NCBI RefSeq assembly: GCF_001192795.1
Contig: NZ_DF968180.1
Coordinates: 310,001-374,000 of the forward strand
From: Flexilinea flocculi
GTDB lineage: Bacteria; Chloroflexota; Anaerolineae; Anaerolineales; Anaerolineaceae
DNA length: 64,000 nt
Reading direction: 5' to 3'
Below the pieces are notes generated by a model that saw nothing but the letters and a program-made list of their open reading frames with translations, did no database searches and was not told where the DNA came from. Of this stretch, positions 8,383 to 36,453 are shown piece after piece. A program made the position numbers and the translations under genes. The first letter of the stretch is position 1. The number at the start of each line of letters is the position of its first letter.

Positions 8383-11300
8383 TTATGGAAAAAGCAGCGT
8401 ATCAAACGCTTTTTGATTGTACTTCAGATCATCATTTTTCCAAAAAACGCTCGTTTTTCCGCAATCATCTAAAAAACAAATCGCCGCACTGACAGGACAA
8501 CGCAACATCAATTTCGCAGCGCGTTCGTAACGTCTGATCTGTTTGGTATACTTTTTTTCCAGAATGAACCGCTCGTCTGGATTTCTTATTGCATCTGTCT
8601 TGAAATCCAGTATCTTCCATTGGTTTTCAAAGCGGTACAAAAGATCGATTACGCCGTGTTCTGGATACGCAACACCCGGCATATCATAGGGAATCTCATG
8701 ATATCGTGCATCGGCTGCATTGATTTCCTGCCAAATTGCGGATTCTTGGAAAGCGGACAATAATTGAATCGTCCTTTGTATGGCTGACTCCTGTTGCGAT
8801 TCGGTCAATTCTTTCAATTCGAGGGACATCTGTTCCATTAATGGGCTAAATCCGGTTTCTTGCGGAAAAGTCCAAATTTCTAACGCCTTATGTACGAGAA
8901 TTCCCACTTTCTTGCCTAAAATGCCTTCCTGAATTTCTGCCGGTTCCGATTCAAATTCCGCAGATGTCGTTGATGAAATTTTCTGCATCAATGAAATGGA
9001 AAGGTGTTTTTGTTCATTTTCACAGGATACGTTATCGGAATCTTGTTTTTCGTAGATTGGTATTTCCTGTTGACTCGATGTCGCTATCCTGACCAGGAAA
9101 GGTTTTCCATCGCGCGTTTTCATCTGTCTCTGCGATTGCTCTCGGATTTCTGACAGCTCATCTTTCCAGGGATCGAGCAATTCGCTGATCCATCCATTCA
9201 ATCGTTTCTCCGTGAAATGTCCGCTGATGATTAATTTATCTTTAGCCCGTGTGAATGCAACATATAACAGCCGTTTTAATTCCGCTTCATTCTGTTCTTT
9301 TTCATCTTTCTCGGCAAGAATATAACCCATTGATTCAGGCTCAGTGCGAATTTGAATTCCGAATTTTTGAGATATGATCCAGGATTCTGCGGAACGGTTA
9401 TTCTGATGAGCGGCATCAGCAACAACGACAATCGGAAATTCGAGCCCTTTCGATTTATGAATGGTCATCAATCGAACCGCTCCGATAGCGTCAGATGGAG
9501 CTTCTCCTTCTCTTGTGCCTGAATCATTCAAATTACGTAAATAGGATAAAAAATCATTCAGTGAAATCATTCCGCTTTGATGGGCATCCGAAATGAGTTT
9601 ATCCACGTTTCGCGAAAATTGTTCATTTGGCATGGATGCCAGCAGAGATCGGTATTTTGTCAGCTGGATTAATTTCGACAGAACGGTTTCGACGGATGCT
9701 CTGCCGGATAGAGAGAATAATTCTTGCAGCACATAGAATACACGTTCTGCAGCTTTCTTGTCATTAGCGGATAAAATTGACTGGTTATTTTGCAGGGATT
9801 CCCAGAGATTGGCAGGTTTTTCAGGTTTGCCACCTTTCGTAAGATTCGGCCAACGCAGTTGAAAAAGGCCATTTTTTGACAGGTGAAAAACCGGACTGAG
9901 GAGCATACCTGCCAATGCGAGATCATCTGCAGGGTTTGCCGCTGCGGAAAGCATGTTTAAAATATCTCGGATTTCCGGGCGATCATAGAATCCTTTGCCC
10001 GATACTGTCACAAATGGAATACCGCTTTTTTCGAAGACCGATTCATAGATTGCAAATCCGCTTGATGCTCGGAACAGCAAGGCTACATCATCCCAACTCT
10101 TCATAAAATCACTGTTTTTCAGCTCTTGCAGTCTGGCTGCAAGCTGTGCTGCAGAGGTTCTTTTTGCTTTATCAACTGATCCCGGATCGTATCCAAGCAA
10201 AAATTCGAGTTCCGGTTCCTTTGGCTGTTCGATTCTTGTTCTCATAGAAGCCAGTGGAGCAAATGGAATCCAGTAGGACTTGTTGGGGATGTTCTGGGTT
10301 CCCATCAGACGGCTGAGAAATTCACCACTTGCGTCTAATAAATCAGGGTCTGTACGATAAGTTGAATCCAGGTCAATGGACAATCCTTCCTTCTTGCAGA
10401 TACCCCGTTGTACAGAGCGGAAAACGGTTACGTCTGCTCCACGGAATCGGTAAATACTTTGCCTGGCATCTCCCACTGCAAAAAAGCTCCCGGGCTTATC
10501 AGATATAATTTCAAGCAGGTGTTGCTGCCGGTAATTGGTGTCCTGAAATTCATCTACCAAAACGGCTCTGATCTTTTCTCGCCATATTTTTCTCACAGCC
10601 GGATTTTCCAATACAATCAGCGTTTTCTCTTCCAGATCATCAAAATCCAAAACCGTTTGCTGATGCAGAATATCTTGATATTGCTTCAGTAATCCCTGAA
10701 ATGCAATTCGAAAAAGATCGATAAGCTGCTGATATTGGTCTTCATTTTCCTTGGATGGCATCCGGTTATTTTTATCCAGAATGTTTTTCCAATTCAAATC
10801 AAGATATTCTCGAATGATTTTTAGCGCACGTTTTGCTTCAGATGTAGCCTTTCCGGCTGATAATTTCATTTTTTCTGTATAAGCAGCCTGCAATACCTTG
10901 ATCGAAGCAAAGGAATCACCTTCCCGAAAATAGGCATCCGCCTGTTTCCAGAGGACAATAAATTCATCAAGCTGCATAGCCAGTTTGTCACCCGCATCTG
11001 CTGTCAATTCCGCTGGATTCAGCCCTGCGATCCATTCAAATTGAGTTCGAACATTCTCATCCGAAAACAATTCTTGCAATTTTTCGTGGATCATCGATTG
11101 CAAATCAAATGTACGCTCAAAAATCCCCTTTGTTTCAAGACGCCGATCCAGCATTCCGGCAAGAATTTTGCGTATTTCATCGATTCTAAATGTCTGAAAA
11201 AGCGGATGGAAATTGTTCTTTTCTGTCATGAATTCGAGCCATTCTTCTATGGCTCTAACTTTTACCATGGAACACTGTTTTTCATCCAGAACGGAAAAAT

Positions 11301-29707: not shown

Positions 29708-31267
29708 TCATAAATTACCAAAAATATACACATTTTCCACATATGCTTTTGCATGATTGCAAATGCCGCTGAGAAAATTCTGGACGTGATCCCAGGTTAA
29801 TGCATATTGATAAGCTGCTGTGATCCGCATGGCATTCTGGATACAGCCGCTGCCTGAATAATAATTGGCTATTGTAAATTTCCATAAATCTTCGTAGGAT
29901 GCGGTGTGTTCGCAATCTGATCCAGTAATATTTTGGATGATCTGGTTGACTTGTGCTGCGCTCGCTCGAATCACAGCACCAAGCAGATCGATTTCTTCAT
30001 ACGTTCCAATTTTTTGCAGAGCACTACCGCGCAATAGTTGTTGTTCCATTGCTGGAAGCTCTGAATATTGGATCTCACATCGATCGGCTTTTTGTGGAAA
30101 AACAGCTTTGCAGAGCTTCATATAATAGGGCGTATTCCAGCGCAGCAGGAGGTCAATACCATTCTCCGTGATCATCCCCAGTCCGTATTCGTTATCAATT
30201 TCCGAATACGGCCAGAATTGTGATTCCTGCGCAATCATACCCTTGATGATGCGCGGTGGAACATGATTCCGAATTCCTGATTCAAAGAGCAAATCGTTAT
30301 ATTGATTCTGCATCGTAAAGATCATGTCAGCACTTACTTTCTCGCCGCATCCATTTGCAGATCCATCGCTCATGAGGCCATAATTATTGCAATGACTGGT
30401 ATCCACCAATCCATGCGTAATAATCTTTCCAGCTAAAATGCTCAGATGAAAGGTGGTTGTAAGAAAATCAGATGAGAATGGCGCTTCATAGATCTTTTGA
30501 TTTTGCAGGTTAAGCTGAGGAAAGACTTGCCAGATATCCGAACAGAAGGGAGCTGCTTCCGGATATGCAGTACTGATCAAATCAAATTGGTATATCGGAC
30601 TGCTTGAATTTGAAACAATCGCAGCCCGATATTTAAAACGGTCATGGACTCCTTGTATCCCATCCGGAGAAAGTGACCAGAATTCCACCCATTTCCCTTC
30701 TTCACTGGTGATTGGTAGTTCCATCTGACATTCATCTTCAGCACATTCACCTTCAAAAGTACCAATTTTGATACGAACGGTGGATGATGGGTCATTACGG
30801 TCCGATGATTTGTTTTGGAAAATCACAACCGGAAGTTGGTTACAGCGGTCGGAAGGTTCACAACCGTGAATGAAGAAAAGGGGATCCTTCGTTTCAAGCA
30901 TGTTCTGTTGATCCGGGTCTGAGACCTGTTTCTGCCAGATCTTTCTAAGAAAAAGGCCGCTGCAATCATTTACATTTTCAGAACGAAAAAACGGATGGCT
31001 GCAAGCCGGTGTGGTGTACCATAAATTCGCAATTTCTTTCCCGCATGCTGCTTCAATCTCAAAAGATGAAGGGATTCCATCTCCTTTCACAGTGATGTTA
31101 CATGCAGGTTCCTGATTCGCCCAAAACGCTAATTGCCAGACGGTTTCCTGTTGTGTGATGGAATGTGCGCAAGTTTTACTTCCAAACGACAGGAATATAG
31201 CCAAACAATAGATTCCCGCAGCGAATTTAGGAAAATGATAATGGATGAATTCCATAAATCTGTTCAT
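29708..31267 (-). CDS. Secreted Cys-rich protein with C-terminal lysozyme-like (SLT) domain
   Basis: 519 residues with a hydrophobic N-terminal segment (about residues 15-33) that acts as a signal peptide or anchor. The middle (residues ~40-300) is rich in cysteine and Asn/Ser and is not recognised. Residues ~330-500 look like a lytic transglycosylase fold: PPRIIKGMIAQESQFWP with the likely catalytic glutamate, then NEYGLGMITENG and later ANYYSGSGC. SLT enzymes cut peptidoglycan between MurNAc and GlcNAc. Because the middle is not a known wall-binding module, the target could be cell wall of other cells. It shares its strand with two other secreted proteins downstream of which it lies. Confidence 0.7.
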   Translation of the reverse strand: MNRFMEFIHYHFPKFAAGIYCLAIFLSFGSKTCAHSITQQETVWQLAFWANQEPACNITVKGDGIPSSFEIEAACGKEIANLWYTTPACSHPFFRSENVNDCSGLFLRKIWQKQVSDPDQQNMLETKDPLFFIHGCEPSDRCNQLPVVIFQNKSSDRNDPSSTVRIKIGTFEGECAEDECQMELPITSEEGKWVEFWSLSPDGIQGVHDRFKYRAAIVSNSSSPIYQFDLISTAYPEAAPFCSDIWQVFPQLNLQNQKIYEAPFSSDFLTTTFHLSILAGKIITHGLVDTSHCNNYGLMSDGSANGCGEKVSADMIFTMQNQYNDLLFESGIRNHVPPRIIKGMIAQESQFWPYSEIDNEYGLGMITENGIDLLLRWNTPYYMKLCKAVFPQKADRCEIQYSELPAMEQQLLRGSALQKIGTYEEIDLLGAVIRASAAQVNQIIQNITGSDCEHTASYEDLWKFTIANYYSGSGCIQNAMRITAAYQYALTWDHVQNFLSGICNHAKAYVENVYIFGNL

Positions 31268-31485
31268 AAAGCAACTGATAATAATTATAAAAAATCTTGC
31301 AATACTAATTAAAATAGCAAGTATATTAGATATTATTATACAGGATAGAACTATTGTTAAGCGTCGAAAAAGCTGTAATTCAAGCTTCGGGAAACAATAA
31401 TTGTTTCAAAATCAGCACGCTGGAAATCTCCATTGATTTCATATTCGAGGTATTCATGCAGGGTTTGCGGATCAAGGAATTTAGA

Positions 31486-31525
31486 AAAAAAAGATGTCCG
31501 AAAATTGCTTCGGACATCTTTTTTT
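31486..31525. terminator. Bidirectional terminator hairpin
   Basis: A perfect 17-bp stem, 31486-31502 with 31509-31525, loop attgct (core gatgtccgaa), has an A run on one side and a T run on the other, so it can stop transcripts from either direction. Confidence 0.85.
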
Positions 31526-31528
31526 GAT

Positions 31529-31596
31529 TCAAAAACTTCATACCAACAAGTTTTACCCGATTGATTTGAATAGCAAGTCCATATTTTGAATTGCTG
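31529..31596 (-). repeat. Half of a hairpin element, cut near the stem apex
   Basis: Only the right half remains: right stem arm (caaaaacttcataccaac), the arm acccgattgatttgaatagcaag and the end atattttgaattgctg. The left half is replaced by the terminator hairpin. Confidence 0.75.
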
Positions 31597-31625
31597 TATC
31601 AAATCAGAATTTTTTACAGATAAAA

Positions 31626-32366
31626 TTATTTTGCCAGATAGCTGAAAGAACCGCTGCCTCCTCCGATCAGGCTGCCTGAAACACCATCATATAGTTGAAA
31701 GTAAAAGGTATGATATCCCAGGTCTTCGCTACCGTGTGCGGCAATCGAAAATGCCCGTTTCCCACCAGGAACGACAGGCTCGTAGGTTGTATCGACAATC
31801 ACGTTAGGGGAATGACCGGTATAGGTGCCCGATGTTGCTACATTGCGCATTTCGATCAAAGCCGGCCAGACGGTATCCCCGTCATTTTCGAACACCACAT
31901 CGATATTGAAGAGGACATTTGGAGTATATTCTGTCTCAAACGTCTTGAGTTCCCCTTGATCACCACCTACCGTGTAAGCGTAGGAGTTGACAAATTTTGC
32001 ATGCACACCTTTATAACTGCCATCGGGATTGGTTTCTCCGGTTTTTATCGCGGTCTTGGTGGGCGCTGCAACAGTGGGAGATGCGATGGCAGTGGCTGAT
32101 GCAACCGTCGCAGTTGGAGCTGTTGTGGGTGGTATTGGTGAACTGGCTGCAGCATTCGATGGATTTCCCAATTGTGATAATACCCGAGCCTCAACAGTTG
32201 CAACAATGGAATCCATCATTCCTTGCGGGTTAATGGTTTGGATCACGGAATCGACAATCAGATTTTGTTCATCCATTGTCAATTGAGGTTTTGGGGTTGC
32301 CGCCAATGCCATAGCGACTGTCAAAGCGGTTATGATAACACCGATGAAAAAAATATTCTTTTTCAT
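31626..32366 (-). CDS. Secreted protein with Thr/Pro/Ala-rich linker and Ig-like (NBR1-type) domain
   Basis: 246 residues. A Sec signal peptide spans about residues 1-23 (IFFIGVIITALTVAMALAA). A region rich in Ala, Thr, Pro and Ser (~75-110) is a flexible linker. The C-terminal ~110 residues form a beta-rich domain resembling the NBR1-like Ig domain (FNIDVVFENDGDTVWPALIEM, PGGKRAFSIAAHG, YHTFYFQLYD). Such proteins are abundant outside Anaerolineae cells; function is unknown, probably binding. It follows the related lipoprotein gene by 18 bp, so they form an operon. Confidence 0.72.
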   Translation of the reverse strand: MKKNIFFIGVIITALTVAMALAATPKPQLTMDEQNLIVDSVIQTINPQGMMDSIVATVEARVLSQLGNPSNAAASSPIPPTTAPTATVASATAIASPTVAAPTKTAIKTGETNPDGSYKGVHAKFVNSYAYTVGGDQGELKTFETEYTPNVLFNIDVVFENDGDTVWPALIEMRNVATSGTYTGHSPNVIVDTTYEPVVPGGKRAFSIAAHGSEDLGYHTFYFQLYDGVSGSLIGGGSGSFSYLAK

Positions 32367-32384
32367 AAAACTCCACGTAAAAAA

Positions 32385-33035
32385 TTACTGAACTGTCCAA
32401 TAGCAGCTTTGATATCCGTTAGTGAGGATATTTCCGCTATCATCGGTCAGCGCAAATTGTGAGTAATGACTGCCTAATTCGTGACCTGCCATATTCTGGT
32501 TAAAGCTGAAACAAGCCTTCTGCCCGTTAGATACCGTTTTTCCAAGCAGAACCGATTGCGGAGAAGTGGAACCACCATCATTTACTATCACTTTACAGGA
32601 AAAGTTCTGGTTCCATGTTCCGGAGCCCTGGTTTTCATAACATACTTCCAGATAGAGTTGGTCGAATGGAACATAGGCGGATTGCACGCCACCGCCCTTT
32701 TGCTGGACATAGCAGCTTTTATTCCCTACTGAATAATAGGGTAAAGTTTCTTTAGTGGCTGTTGGCGGAATCGCAGGCAGCGCACTGGTAGCAGTAAATG
32801 CCGGTGTGGGAGTGTCGGTAGGTAGCGGTGTTGCGGACGGGTGGAGGATTGCATCCTGGGTTTGAGTCATCGCAAGGATTACGGATGCGGTTTCTTGTGC
32901 CGCCTGCATCATCTCTGCTTCACTCATCGTCGGCGTTTTTGTTGGATCATGCGGAATATTTCTGCAGCCTGAGAACAGCAATGCAGCAAAAATCAACATC
33001 GTAAAGAGTCGGTTCATTCTTTTATTTATGTTCAT
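32385..33035 (-). CDS. Lipoprotein with Thr/Pro-rich linker and Ig-like domain
   Basis: 216 residues. The N-terminus is a lipoprotein signal with lipobox LFSGC, cysteine near residue 24. A Thr/Pro-rich linker covers ~60-95. The C-terminal domain (LYLEVCYENQGSGTWNQNF, NGQKACFSFNQNMAG, GNILTNGYQSCYW) has the same layout as the domain of the gene that follows it, plus cysteines likely to form disulfides. GGGAGA precedes the ATG. It would be displayed on the outer face of the membrane; no enzyme motif is visible. Confidence 0.72.
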   Translation of the reverse strand: MNINKRMNRLFTMLIFAALLFSGCRNIPHDPTKTPTMSEAEMMQAAQETASVILAMTQTQDAILHPSATPLPTDTPTPAFTATSALPAIPPTATKETLPYYSVGNKSCYVQQKGGGVQSAYVPFDQLYLEVCYENQGSGTWNQNFSCKVIVNDGGSTSPQSVLLGKTVSNGQKACFSFNQNMAGHELGSHYSQFALTDDSGNILTNGYQSCYWTVQ

Positions 33036-33116: not shown

Positions 33117-33237
33117 CAGCGATGCGAAATATCAAAAAACATTTCGAATCAATTGATAAAACTTGTTATTGTGTTGTTCTTGTGTTCTGTGCAAAAGCTA
33201 CTAAATAACTAATTTTCTCTCATTGTTTATTTGGAAA
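33117..33237 (+). repeat. Hairpin MITE-like element overlapping the end of the SGNH gene
   Basis: Left end cagcgatgcgaaatat and arm catttcgaatcaattga are clear. The stem (33159-33205) is degraded. The right end, near 33237, is diverged and overlaps the last codons of the SGNH gene, whose stop is at 33220-33222. Confidence 0.6.
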
Positions 33238-33876
33238 AAATGGCCGGATGACGTCAGTCCAAATCTGGTACCCTTCGGCCATGAGGTGGAGATGATCATT
33301 CGAAAGCTGGTCTTTCAACGCACCCTGTTCGTTAGCCAGGTGTGAGAACAGATCAATAAATTCATATCCATAGGAACTTGCAAGTTCTTCCAGGTTTTTA
33401 TTGAGGCGGATAATACGTTTGGAAAAACTCTTGTGCCGCGGAAAAATCGACTGAATGTATACTTTTGTCAGTGGAGTTTTCTCGCGAAATTCCTGAAGAA
33501 TCATCCGATAGTATTTTATAATAAATCGGTCGTTGTGAGAGAGCCAGAAACCTAAATCGTTCGTCCCGATCAGCAAGAAAACGATTGACGGCTTTCCCTC
33601 AATAATCTGATCTATGCGCTTGTAAACGCCTTTGACTGTATCAGCGCTGATGCCGCGATTTTTTACCGGATATTCCGGAAAGATTTCTTCCCAAGGGCCG
33701 AAATCTGTAATGCTGTCTCCCAAAAAGACAATATCCCCGGGTTGAATCGGGAATTTTCGAAAATGATCAACTTTTTGATAATAGTAAGCGCTAATCAGAT
33801 GTCTCTCAATAATTTTATATAATAAATAGGCTGAAATGATAAATATAAGAATATATAAAAAGATCTGTTGTATCAT
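33220..33876 (-). CDS. SGNH/GDSL hydrolase with N-terminal membrane anchor
   Basis: 218 residues. A hydrophobic N-terminal helix (residues ~4-22) anchors the protein. Catalytic blocks: VFLGDSITDFG (nucleophile serine), the glycine in NRGISADTV, LLIGTNDLG (GxND) and SNDHLHLMAEGY with the Asp-x-x-His dyad. It is an esterase or lipase of the TesA/GDSL kind, probably acting on lipids or acylated glycans at the membrane. It overlaps the radical-SAM gene by 4 bp, so it is translationally coupled to it. The last residues may be altered by an inserted element. Confidence 0.88.
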   Translation of the reverse strand: MIQQIFLYILIFIISAYLLYKIIERHLISAYYYQKVDHFRKFPIQPGDIVFLGDSITDFGPWEEIFPEYPVKNRGISADTVKGVYKRIDQIIEGKPSIVFLLIGTNDLGFWLSHNDRFIIKYYRMILQEFREKTPLTKVYIQSIFPRHKSFSKRIIRLNKNLEELASSYGYEFIDLFSHLANEQGALKDQLSNDHLHLMAEGYQIWTDVIRPFFPNKQ

Positions 33877-34439
33877 TGAATTCCCTCAATCCTGCCTAAT
33901 CCGCTCATGATGATGGTTCCATTTTCCTGGATAAATATCTCATTGGTCATAAGATTATTAAAATCTTCTTTCTGATAACGGCTGCTTAATAAGAAAAGTT
34001 TCTGATTGCCTGATGCACAAAACTGATTGTAATCAGGTTGCACATCCTTTTGATAGGGGCCGCTGATCAACACATCAGTATTTTTCAGGCATGCGCGATA
34101 CAGAGGTACCGTATCAAGCAGCGTTTTCTCGTAACCACTGAAAATGAGTACCGACAGCAAGGTTGTTTGTTTGATTTCAAGAAGCAGACAGTTTAGTGCC
34201 TCTGCCTGAAGGAAAGGTTCACCGCCGCTGATGGTAATGCCTTCAATATCGCTGCCAAGTCTCATAATTTCTTGCATAAGTTTAGTCACTGACATCCGAT
34301 AACCTTGGTGCATCGGATGGGTTTGCGGATTACAGCATCCCGGACAATTTTGCAGACAACCTTGCGTCCAGATAACTGCCCGAATTCCTGGCCCGTTCGC
34401 GCTGCTTCTCTTCAGAAAGTAATTCAGCTTCAAATCCAT
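33873..34439 (-). CDS. Radical-SAM activase-like protein (NrdG/PflA-type, 4Fe-4S)
   Basis: A 188-residue short radical-SAM protein. The cluster motif is CLQNCPGC (C-x3-C-x2-C, cysteines about residues 27, 31, 34) in TQGCLQNCPGCCNPQTHP, followed by the SAM-contacting GGEP in ITISGGEPFLQAEAL. This resembles activases that install a glycyl radical or supply electrons (NrdG, PflA), and '4Fe-4S single cluster' proteins. No glycyl-radical enzyme gene is nearby. The start touches the stop of a DUF2997-like gene (TAGATG) and its stop overlaps the SGNH gene, so it is part of a tight operon of three. Confidence 0.85.
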   Translation of the reverse strand: MDLKLNYFLKRSSANGPGIRAVIWTQGCLQNCPGCCNPQTHPMHQGYRMSVTKLMQEIMRLGSDIEGITISGGEPFLQAEALNCLLLEIKQTTLLSVLIFSGYEKTLLDTVPLYRACLKNTDVLISGPYQKDVQPDYNQFCASGNQKLFLLSSRYQKEDFNNLMTNEIFIQENGTIIMSGLGRIEGIQ

Positions 34440-34661
34440 CTATTTTCGAACGATTTTCACATTTTCCTTTTTTAGAATGTTCATTGCAATCGGCTGATCA
34501 AAAAACTCGGGCGTCATTTCCCGACTGGCAATATTATCTCCTAAAAGGGCTTCTAATCCAGCTGTCGAATCAAGGCAGGTTCTTCCAGGGATGCCGCGTA
34601 CATGAATCTGGATCTTTCCATTTTCCCCGATGATAACTTCGATTTCTTCTAAATTGATCAT
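34440..34661 (-). CDS. DUF2997-like small protein
   Basis: 73 residues: EIEVIIGENGKIQIHVRGIPGRTCLDSTAGLEALLG followed by a short tail. This matches the DUF2997 pattern (an initial beta strand pair, then G-x-x-C-L-D, then an amphipathic helix). Members have no known function and are found next to DUF1257/Ycf35-like proteins, AAA ATPases and radical-SAM proteins, from memory and not checked here. It directly abuts the radical-SAM gene. The conserved Cys in RTCLD is the residue to watch. Confidence 0.75.
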   Translation of the reverse strand: MINLEEIEVIIGENGKIQIHVRGIPGRTCLDSTAGLEALLGDNIASREMTPEFFDQPIAMNILKKENVKIVRK

Positions 34662-34757
34662 GATTCACCTGTTCTTGCCTAAAGCCCGCTTTTTATTGCT
34701 TCAGTGTAATTTCCTCTTCAATCGATTATATCCGTTTTCTGACGGGCACAATTCGAT

Positions 34758-34880
34758 TAACGATTCGTAATAAAAACTTGTTTTTTGAGTAAGGGACGAA
34801 AACTTGTGGTTGTGTTGTTTTTGCTCTCAGCGGAAAAACAACACAATAATAAATAATCCCTCTCATAATTCGAATCGTTG
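34758..34880 (+). repeat. Hairpin MITE-like element, copy 11
   Basis: Right end ataattcgaatcgttg; left end taacgattcgtaat, arm caacttgt-like but diverged. Stem about 34806-34850 with mismatches near the apex. Flanks caattcgat and caaatcagg agree at 5 of 9. Confidence 0.7.
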
Positions 34881-34884
34881 CAAA

Positions 34885-36453
34885 TCAGGTGAGTCTGATC
34901 ACTGGAAATCGCGAAAATACTTTCTCGCCGTTTTTCAAATCGAAAGCAGAAATCAGCAGCATCTTATTGCTGTCGATTTCAAACTCAACTGAAAAACGTG
35001 CTTCTCCCTTTGCAGCAGGTGGATTGGCAACCAGAAATGAAGGGGTTTGTTCATTCATCCAATAAAATAAGTGGGAATCATTTTCTTCTTGTTCTGTCGG
35101 AAAAATCCGGACTTCACCATTTTCGTTGAACATGATTTCAAAGTGACCAGATGGGAATGAGGACTGGCTGCTGATTTCGTAAATTGCCAAGCCGAGCAAA
35201 GATTGCTGATCGAAGGCTGCTTTGATGGTCAGTGTTGATATGGGTTCCAATGTTGGATAGCGAGTACGTCGCTTGATGATCGTGTGAAACGCGTACGCTC
35301 CATTGGCGGGATTCCGGTAGCGAACTGCGTATTCATGTTGAATAAAATCAAAAATCTCCAGACCTCCGGCAAAACAGGCCGCTCCGCGGGCTACAGCTCC
35401 CATGGGCTCTCCAAAAGCCATTTTTTCTATTCCAAATTGATCAATCAGTGTTTTTTGGATCATTGGAATCAGACAACTTCCACCAACCGGAATGACTTTC
35501 TTGATTGATTCAACCGGATAACCGTGATCTGCCGCTTGCATCACTGCATCCTTGACGAGTCGATGAACCGATTCAACAAGCTGGTTCTCCGACAGGATAT
35601 TTTCCAGCTTTTTCCTTGTAAACAGGTTGGTTATCGTCCTCTTATTGGAAAGAGTGAATGCATATTCAACAGACTCTTGTGCGGATAATTGCTGTTTCAC
35701 TTTTTCACACAGGCTTAATAGAGTGCAACTGTTTTGTATCACTTCAGGTTGATGCGGAGATAATCCGTTTTCTCTACAAACTTCTTCGTAAATCCATCGA
35801 TCGATGACAGCTCCACCGATGCTGCATCCCGCTTTGCCCAGAATTCTGCAAAATCGATTACCTGATCCCTCGGATTCCTCAGCTATAGTGATAGCTGTCT
35901 GCATTGTACTGCCACCGAAATCAAACAAGAGGAAAACTTCCCCGGGATGAACTTTTTCTCCATAACCTGCAGCAGCTGCAGATGCCTCATCTACGATACG
36001 AATTCTTTCTGCGTGATGTCGATCGGTTAAGGACATTAACCAATTTTGATAATACTCAAAGGACTCGATGGGAACGCTTAGTGTAATTTCATCAGATTGG
36101 AAGGTATATGTATCTGTTGCTGCAAGTTTCAGCGCATTCAAAAAATCTTCGGCTGCTTGTTGCGCATTGATTCTCATGTTACCAATTTGAATTTGATATG
36201 GACTGCGTAAGCTGATGTATCGTTTCATCCACCGAAATGTGTGCGGAGAGGAAAGCAAATTACGGGAGATGATTTGATTGCCAATGAGCTGATTCCCATC
36301 GGATTCATAATGAATCAGAGATGGAATCAAAAAATCAGAGCCATCGCTGAATTCCGGTAGGGAGATGGTTTCTGTGGTCTGTAACGCTTCGTTCCATAGC
36401 GCCAGGACGGTGTTCGAGTTTCCAAAATCAATCGCCAGTTTGTTTTCTGTCAT
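34885..36453 (-). CDS. Hsp70-like chaperone/ATPase with short C-terminal region
   Basis: 522 residues. The N-terminal ~370 residues are an actin-fold ATPase: LAIDFGNSNTVLALW (phosphate 1), LLFDFGGSTMQTAI (phosphate 2) and VIPVGGSCLIPMI with GAVARGAA (adenosine pocket). DnaK's EEVD end and full lid are missing; only a beta-rich domain of about 120 residues follows. The TAGAAT hexamer eight bases before the ATG could make the transcript nearly leaderless. It lies upstream of the DUF2997/radical-SAM/SGNH operon on the same strand, with only a hairpin element between. Specialised Hsp70s of this kind assist particular protein complexes; no J-protein or GrpE is seen here. Confidence 0.87.
   Translation of the reverse strand: MTENKLAIDFGNSNTVLALWNEALQTTETISLPEFSDGSDFLIPSLIHYESDGNQLIGNQIISRNLLSSPHTFRWMKRYISLRSPYQIQIGNMRINAQQAAEDFLNALKLAATDTYTFQSDEITLSVPIESFEYYQNWLMSLTDRHHAERIRIVDEASAAAAGYGEKVHPGEVFLLFDFGGSTMQTAITIAEESEGSGNRFCRILGKAGCSIGGAVIDRWIYEEVCRENGLSPHQPEVIQNSCTLLSLCEKVKQQLSAQESVEYAFTLSNKRTITNLFTRKKLENILSENQLVESVHRLVKDAVMQAADHGYPVESIKKVIPVGGSCLIPMIQKTLIDQFGIEKMAFGEPMGAVARGAACFAGGLEIFDFIQHEYAVRYRNPANGAYAFHTIIKRRTRYPTLEPISTLTIKAAFDQQSLLGLAIYEISSQSSFPSGHFEIMFNENGEVRIFPTEQEENDSHLFYWMNEQTPSFLVANPPAAKGEARFSVEFEIDSNKMLLISAFDLKNGEKVFSRFPVIRLT

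Follow-up and report, generated by a model that had tools for sequence, protein, structure and literature searches.

A short Hsp70, a DUF2997 protein and a radical SAM protein of Flexilinea flocculi as part of a putative protein-remodelling module

What brings a short Hsp70-like ATPase, a small protein of the family DUF2997, a radical SAM protein and an SGNH hydrolase together at one locus? The question is raised by a stretch of 64,000 nucleotides from Flexilinea flocculi (assembly GCF_001192795.1, contig NZ_DF968180.1, forward-strand positions 310,001 to 374,000; here called the window), for which a sequence-only reading had proposed that the DUF2997 protein could be the substrate of the radical SAM protein and the Hsp70 a dedicated chaperone. 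All four open reading frames were confirmed on the minus strand (Table 1), and the Pfam assignments of their products exceed the family cut-offs. From upstream to downstream, the order is Hsp70-like, DUF2997, radical SAM and SGNH: a gap of 223 bp separates the first two genes, the TAG stop codon of DUF2997 directly abuts the ATG start codon of the radical SAM gene, and the latter overlaps the SGNH gene by 4 bp, so that both gene junctions described from the sequence were borne out. Our comparison of genomes indicates that the first three genes very probably form one module with genes for a DUF1257 protein (Ycf35 family), a Cdc48-type AAA ATPase, usually a WD40-type protein and sometimes a GrpE-like protein. 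The F. flocculi genome (G000; three contigs, 97% complete) has a single DUF2997 gene and a single DUF1257 gene, located on different contigs, and the window thus appears to hold one half of a split multigene machine.

Co-occurrence and gene order of the module

Among 147 genomes of the family, we found DUF2997 in 37, the module radical SAM protein in 37, DUF1257 in 38 and the module Hsp70 in 39, with all 37 shared (Fisher p values of 9e-33 to 1e-35, which ignore shared ancestry). The extra genomes, G031 and G009, look like assembly ends, since the contig of G031 stops 93 bp past its DUF1257 match and that of G009 54 bp past its Hsp70 match. High scores of module members are expected for the radical SAM profile (A3) and the Hsp70 profile (A5), both of which were built from such members; the absence of matches elsewhere and the recovery of unlinked copies are not given by construction. 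Profile A3 scored 205 to 266 bits in 35 family genomes and at best 157 bits among 110 others, the genes of G039 and G045 having been counted by position because the assembly interrupts them (166 and 63 bits; two contig pieces). With profile A5, the 39 genomes scored 504 to 817 bits, and no other Hsp70 exceeded 133.5 bits.

The same association is seen in the gene order. At the 38 DUF2997 loci of the family, the radical SAM gene is adjacent in 36, and 32 of the loci include the Hsp70 gene; five loci of the window's genus lack Hsp70, and their genomes carry the gene on a different contig. The conserved set of Hsp70, DUF2997 and radical SAM genes that the sequence-only reading had put forward thus recurs in relatives and, as shown below, in other phyla. 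The SGNH hydrolase, which that reading had included, was rejected as a component, since it adjoins the radical SAM gene in just three of the 38 loci (the window, L089 and L093; L094 ends on the relevant side), and the DUF1257, AAA and WD40-type partners had been overlooked. Outside the genus, DUF1257 is adjacent to DUF2997 in all 24 genomes with DUF2997 (L062 to L085, some of these loci being shortened by contig ends), accompanied by Hsp70 in 24, the radical SAM protein in 23, a Cdc48-type AAA in 19 and a WD40-type protein in 23, the last being counted here and below at a low limit (60 bits) that may take in unrelated WD40 proteins. The usual order there is AAA - (WD40) - Hsp70 - DUF1257 - DUF2997 - radical SAM - WD40.

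Within the genus, 13 of 14 genomes carry the module, and in all 13 carriers DUF1257 lies apart from DUF2997: DUF2997 and the radical SAM gene occupy one place, and DUF1257, WD40 and an SprT-like gene another, with no more than 2 kb between the AAA gene and DUF1257 in 12 of the 13 (L109 starts at a contig end). The Hsp70 gene is on a third contig in five carriers, and G037, whose assembly is a single contig, places DUF2997 about 2.1 Mb from DUF1257. The other half in F. flocculi (locus L032) consists of a gene for an AAA ATPase of 515 amino acids (aa) followed by DUF1257, which overlaps by 4 bp the gene for a protein of 742 aa whose C-terminal part is a WD40-type propeller; GyrI-like and SprT-like genes lie downstream. 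The SprT-like metallopeptidase follows the AAA-DUF1257-WD40 half in 13 of 13 carriers of the genus.

Beyond the family, a scan with a DUF1257 alignment yielded 63 named loci, in which DUF1257 is present by construction and which overlap with the family loci (for example, L115 and L063 share one contig). At fixed thresholds, 54 of them hold DUF2997, 46 a WD40-type protein and 43 each Hsp70, AAA and the radical SAM protein. For the 29 loci flanked on either side by 8 kb or more, the counts were 28 (DUF2997), 26 (Hsp70), 25 (WD40-type), 24 (radical SAM) and 23 (AAA), the misses falling in L125, L129, L131, L132, L156, L159, L172 and the Treponema locus L176. According to record titles and tree labels, DUF1257 occurs with the radical SAM protein or Hsp70 in eleven bacterial phyla, namely Chloroflexota, Cyanobacteriota, Thermodesulfobacteriota, Planctomycetota, Verrucomicrobiota, Nitrospirota, Sumerlaeota, Hydrogenedentota, Acidobacteriota, Myxococcota and Delongbacteria; one further locus labelled as archaeal (L167) is a contig of a metagenome-assembled genome and may be misassigned. 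The order of the genes is shuffled across phyla with the members still together, as in the planctomycete locus L147 (DUF1257-DUF2997-radical SAM-AAA-DUF1257-WD40-GrpE-Hsp70).

Smaller versions are found on mobile elements. Plasmid pPPM1a of Paenibacillus polymyxa M1 carries consecutive genes for AAA (456 bits), DUF1257 (44 bits), DUF2997 (35 bits) and the radical SAM protein (188 bits), and a prophage in G101 carries AAA, DUF1257 and DUF2997. Of two phage regions scanned, only that of a Rhizobium phage has DUF2997 (37 bits) and a weak DUF1257 match (17 bits), together with AAA (326 bits). In cyanophage P-SSM2, DUF2997 lies beside DUF1257; the neighbouring cyanophage protein "Nol" was considered as an AAA partner and rejected, being NodU-like. 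A Pseudanabaena plasmid has the order GrpE-Hsp70-DUF1257-two extra genes-DUF2997-AAA-WD40-type, with no radical SAM gene in the cluster. Judged by these reduced forms, the core would seem to consist of AAA, DUF1257 and DUF2997, with the radical SAM protein as a frequent member and Hsp70, GrpE and WD40 as a common extension.

Several mobile or distant loci show further features. Phage records H28 to H52, from Mycobacterium and Rhizobium phages among others, hold homologues of about 33% identity that span nearly the whole module AAA. On the Treponema succinifaciens plasmid pTRESU01 (L205 1-18060 and L200 1561-13162; also L175 and L176), contractile injection system genes are present: DUF1257 lies between the sheath/tube and baseplate genes, and a radical SAM gene (157 bits) and an AAA gene (522 bits) stand among further injection-system genes. 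With this radical SAM protein scoring just 157 bits on a plasmid that also has AAA and DUF1257, the score limit for the family is soft. FGE-sulfatase-type proteins are encoded beside the module at eight loci outside Chloroflexota (L153, L157, L158, L161, L162, L169, L170 and L174), and the FGE domain was confirmed in the proteins of three of these. On one cyanobacterial plasmid, an AAA_21 ATPase gene (9430-10497) is located inside the DUF1257-DUF2997 genes (L112 9430-11003), and on another an ATP-binding/RloB-family pair lies beside them (L113 6168-8098).

Component proteins and a possible mechanism

The radical SAM protein has the layout of an activase, as the sequence-only reading had stated: it shares with NrdG and the pyruvate formate-lyase (PFL) activating enzyme, its closest models, the size, the motifs CX3CX2C and GGEP (kept by all 32 members aligned) and the N-terminal S-x2-N-G-P-G-x-R. 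The likeness does not extend to the NrdG cut-off or to a cognate enzyme. NrdG, the best NCBIfam model, scored 92.7 bits against a cut-off of 126.1, and no match to the glycyl-radical models PF01228 and PF13597 was obtained anywhere in the F. flocculi genome, which widens the earlier remark that no such enzyme is nearby (in 14 control genomes, the two models were positive in 3 and 6, respectively). A tree of 71 sequences places the module radical SAM proteins, with the window row included as module, on one side of a branch with support 99/96, opposite 12 other radical SAM proteins of the family; two of these, which were checked, are encoded beside NrdD, and others beside an AAA or kinase gene. 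The window protein is the only match to profile A3 in its genome, and DUF2997 is its constant partner. Because no glycyl-radical enzyme was detected in the genome, the protein does not appear to be an ordinary activase, and a role as activase of a distant glycyl-radical enzyme was likewise rejected for F. flocculi.

A second NrdG-like radical SAM family scores 136 to 157 bits with the module profile (L185, L186, L187, L188, L193, L194 and L195). In L188, its gene adjoins genes for a 454-aa protein without a Pfam match and for an AAA protein, an arrangement that looks closer to the FtsH-containing ternary systems of Kaur et al. 2020 (PMC7159879). The Calothrix plasmid L202 has the order Hsp70-TPR-radical SAM-hypothetical-AAA. 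On a Delongbacteria contig (L163 3834-7059), a larger second radical SAM gene and an open reading frame of 801 aa directly follow the module radical SAM gene; the latter frame probably accounts for the single PFL-like match obtained with the neighbours.

DUF2997 carries an invariant G-x2-G-x2-C motif (G23, G26 and C29; alignment A2, 35 sequences), which includes its one invariant cysteine. The cysteine, already pointed out from the window sequence, is kept in 94 of 94 rows, a set that includes near-duplicates. DUF1257 is predicted as a confident single domain (pLDDT 91) and has Ser2 in 87 and His3 in 85 of 88 rows. Neither family has sequence relatives in the PDB, apart from two chance-level matches, and the model of DUF2997 is too poor for a fold comparison.

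The module Hsp70 shares the motifs of the nucleotide-binding domain with DnaK and HscA, and an alignment of 20 members shows these to be largely invariant, with GGS-T replacing GGG-T in the window copy. It differs from them in its length of about 520 to 550 aa, which leaves little room for the C-terminal helical lid. Since the best matches to solved Hsp70s stop near position 430 to 440 of the 529 in the profile, only about 100 residues follow, which points to a beta subdomain that lacks space for the usual lid. A GrpE-like cluster is represented in 16 of 66 loci, and a GrpE domain was found in 9 of 84 neighbours scanned; no GrpE-like gene lies beside the window genes, and a canonical GrpE and a canonical DnaK are encoded elsewhere in the genome. 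While the Hsp70 is a module member, its dedication to the radical SAM/DUF2997 pair, as the sequence-only reading had it, is too narrow, given that it also occurs with a GrpE-like gene in the cyanobacterial plasmid cluster that lacks the radical SAM gene.

Among PDB entries, p97/Cdc48 comes closest to the module AAA, over the C-terminal half of the latter. ATPases of this class unfold or extract proteins, and WD40 proteins usually bind clients or partners. HEAT repeats were detected in at least one of three proteins scanned. An apparent natural AAA-DUF1257 fusion in L137 proved to be an open-frame artefact, the coordinates placing the two in different frames.

A Cdc48-like AAA, an Hsp70 whose ATPase motifs are conserved and which at times has an exchange factor of its own, and a WD40-type protein together make it probable that the module is an ATP-driven protein-remodelling machine, and the best overall explanation is therefore such a machine with its own radical SAM maturase, to which we assign a probability of roughly 0.55. 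The WD40-type protein would capture a client, which the Hsp70, with GrpE where present, would keep extended; the DUF1257-DUF2997 pair would act as an adaptor coupling the client to the AAA ring, and the ring would thread or disassemble it. With less confidence, we propose that the radical SAM protein would serve as the maturase of the machine, modifying one component by means of a 5'-deoxyadenosyl radical. Being the immediate gene neighbour and carrying the invariant Gly/Cys loop, DUF2997 is the first candidate for this modification. The exact co-occurrence of the two and their adjacency at family loci speak for DUF2997 as the substrate, a plausible role that we nonetheless put forward tentatively, as a candidate only.

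Several observations weigh against this explanation. Nineteen of the 94 Cys-bearing DUF2997 rows come from loci without the radical SAM gene (one row from such loci has one motif glycine replaced), and the cysteine is retained in DUF2997 loci of phages and cyanobacteria that lack this gene, so that either the cysteine would have a role independent of the radical SAM protein or cyanobacteria would achieve the same chemistry differently. When ten genomes with such a DUF2997 locus were searched, the four non-cyanobacterial ones had the radical SAM gene elsewhere (G122, on another contig, G153, G154 and G155; 226 to 254 bits); the six cyanobacterial genomes reached at most 153 bits with the profile, two of them giving no match at all, and in the phage regions scanned no radical SAM gene was found beside DUF2997. 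This dispensability argues against modification of DUF2997 being essential. Similarly, minimal versions of the module lack Hsp70 and WD40, and the Hsp70 step is thus not universal. Two genomes of one genus (L077 and L081) have no AAA within the 12 kb fetched, and presence in the family is patchy (37 of 147). Finally, the predicted DUF2997 model is poor (pLDDT 63), and the best hit of the DUF1257 fold search, to a KA1-type domain, has a Z score of 6.7, within the range that the tool calls common.

A more inclusive version of the remodelling machine, which we consider doubtful, would join Hsp70/GrpE, a Cdc48-like AAA and a radical SAM-modified DUF2997 that, together with DUF1257, connects the capture of clients with the motor; the form kept in cyanobacteria, plastids and phages would be a reduced one free of the radical SAM protein, and Ycf35 and probably Ycf46 would be parts of the same machine. 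Ycf46 is presumably an AAA protein of about 500 aa, and its identification with the module AAA family is our guess. Whether a red algal plastid has ycf35 and ycf46 tracks the habitat of the alga (81.8 and 87.9% concordance), many freshwater species lacking both, as described in PMC5940233, where ycf35 is treated as a member of a conserved hypothetical family; this pattern is compatible with a shared pathway. Ycf46 inactivation lowers the activity of the carbonic anhydrase EcaB and Ycf46 affects CO2 use, in the account given by PMC7496141 (citing Jiang et al. 2015), and in Synechocystis ycf35 and fed7 depend on SigD, according to PMC8875361.

Alternative readings

Part of this arrangement is already in print. 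A cyanobacterial cluster DUF2997-ycf35(DUF1257)-fed7 has been published (PMC4284462), and it shares the DUF2997/DUF1257 adjacency with the family carriers outside the genus, unlike F. flocculi and the 12 other carriers of the genus, in which the two are not adjacent. The published cluster further differs in having a ferredoxin in place of the radical SAM protein, and the passage devoted to it names no Hsp70, AAA or WD40 and assigns the cluster no function; no ferredoxin was found among nine window proteins and five L032 proteins scanned. The full part list matches no described system that we found, although the parts themselves come from known families, and the open-licence PMC papers searched held no description of the set, in line with the earlier statement that no such system is known. 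DUF2997 turns up in two of these papers and DUF1257 in three, in passages that do not deal with the combination seen here.

One alternative to a remodelling machine is that the module is an NTPase-centred conflict system, directed against phages or serving self/non-self recognition, with WD40- or FGE-type proteins as sensors, AAA and Hsp70 as the switch and the radical SAM/DUF2997 pair as an effector branch. Its logic would resemble systems of Kaur et al. 2020 (PMC7159879) with an FtsH-type AAA, a beta-propeller, and Hsp70/GrpE or a radical SAM protein; the FtsH-containing ternary systems share with the module the FtsH/Cdc48-type AAA, a radical SAM protein possibly modifying a small peptide and beta-propellers. 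The main text of that paper does not mention DUF1257 or DUF2997, and the MoxR and vWA components of those ternary systems are not in the 25 commonest Pfam families of the 84 chosen neighbours (the other 82 families occur in at most one neighbour each). The plasmid-borne copies and those of phages or a prophage, the patchy family distribution and the FGE-domain proteins in 9 of the 84 neighbours would suit a conflict system. So would the PADLOC matches of these neighbours (best 25 of 110 families), including AbiLi (2), kinase-type (such as PD-T4-6 and mad6; 2) and IetA-type AAA (3); the AbiLi matches would fit the AAA_21 gene of L112 and locus L113, in which DUF1257 has an RloB-family neighbour. 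However, no effector domain recurs in more than two or three of the 84, and PADLOC on nine proteins (eight of the module and SGNH) returned only general AAA (IetA, TRIP13 and DUF1156_MTase) and weak pVip matches. The near-constant presence of the module in the window's genus, where it lies beside galK in 6 of 13 carriers, and the retention of the DUF1257 relative Ycf35 in many plastids (as given in PMC5940233) likewise make a conflict system unlikely.

Less likely again is a function in iron-sulphur or redox maintenance, in which an HscA-like Hsp70 would work with DUF2997 and DUF1257 as carriers or inserters of a cluster or metal, and the radical SAM protein (in cyanobacteria, the ferredoxin) would be the client or electron partner. 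HscA is indeed the best NCBIfam match of the window Hsp70, far under its cut-off (93 versus 708 bits), but DnaK models score almost as high. The invariant cysteine of DUF2997 and the conserved Ser2 and His3 of DUF1257 would suit such a role, yet a single cysteine would be insufficient to hold a cluster alone. The pairing of DUF2997-ycf35 with fed7 in cyanobacteria and the response of the Synechocystis Ycf46 operon to iron and sulphur deficiency and to oxidative stress, as summarized in PMC7496141, are consistent with this alternative, which leaves the Cdc48-like AAA and the WD40-type protein unexplained.

That the radical SAM protein is an ordinary glycyl-radical-enzyme activase placed here by accident is largely refuted: NrdG and PFL activase are its closest models, but the 97%-complete genome yielded no glycyl-radical enzyme, the NrdG cut-off was missed, the 99/96 branch sets the module proteins apart from their homologues, and the protein co-occurs with DUF2997 in 37 of 37 genomes.

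Neighbouring features and significance of the module

Besides the four genes, the window contains a dispersed hairpin repeat, apparently intergenic and about 100 bases long (AAACATCACAACAACAAGTTTT together with its upstream arm), with 10 matches against 0.01 expected. Its consensus stem comprises 18 pairs, of which 6 show two-sided changes that preserve pairing. Two copies lie at the locus studied here, one after the SGNH gene and one between the Hsp70 and DUF2997 genes. Rfam matched neither the repeat nor anything else in the window, and a promoter scan of the window showed no excess (8 observed versus 8.5 expected). Downstream of the SGNH gene, window positions 29708-33035 encode two small proteins (216 and 246 aa) and a 519-aa protein, relatives of which were found, in identical order, only in L093 among the loci scanned.

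Table 1. Features of the window and of locus L032 (window coordinates unless another locus is given)
Feature	Coordinates	Strand	Evidence	Assignment
Hsp70-like ATPase, 522 aa	34885..36453	-	HSP70, 94.1 bits (Pfam, over cut-off)	Module component
DUF2997 protein, 73 aa	34440..34661	-	PF11211, 54.3 bits (Pfam gathering score 24.1)	Putative core component and candidate radical SAM substrate
Radical SAM protein, 188 aa	33873..34439	-	Fer4_12, 97.1 bits; Radical_SAM, 34.2 bits	Module-specific
SGNH hydrolase, 218 aa	33220..33876	-	Lipase_GDSL_2, 83.6 bits	Lineage-specific neighbour outside the module
SprT-like metallopeptidase	L032 5543-6493; equivalents in L100-L111		Pfam in L032, phmmer in relatives
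Hairpin repeat copies	6230, 8280, 20428, 24743, 26326, 33158, 34799, 45611, 56633, 58570

Taken as one module, the genes considered here would turn several orphan families (DUF1257/Ycf35, DUF2997, a distinct radical SAM subfamily and a short Hsp70) into a single testable system, which spans eleven named bacterial phyla as well as plasmids and phages. The plastid gene ycf35 would thereby gain a set of candidate partners, and the four-gene plasmid version in the cultured Paenibacillus polymyxa M1 would make the enzymology of the system directly approachable.

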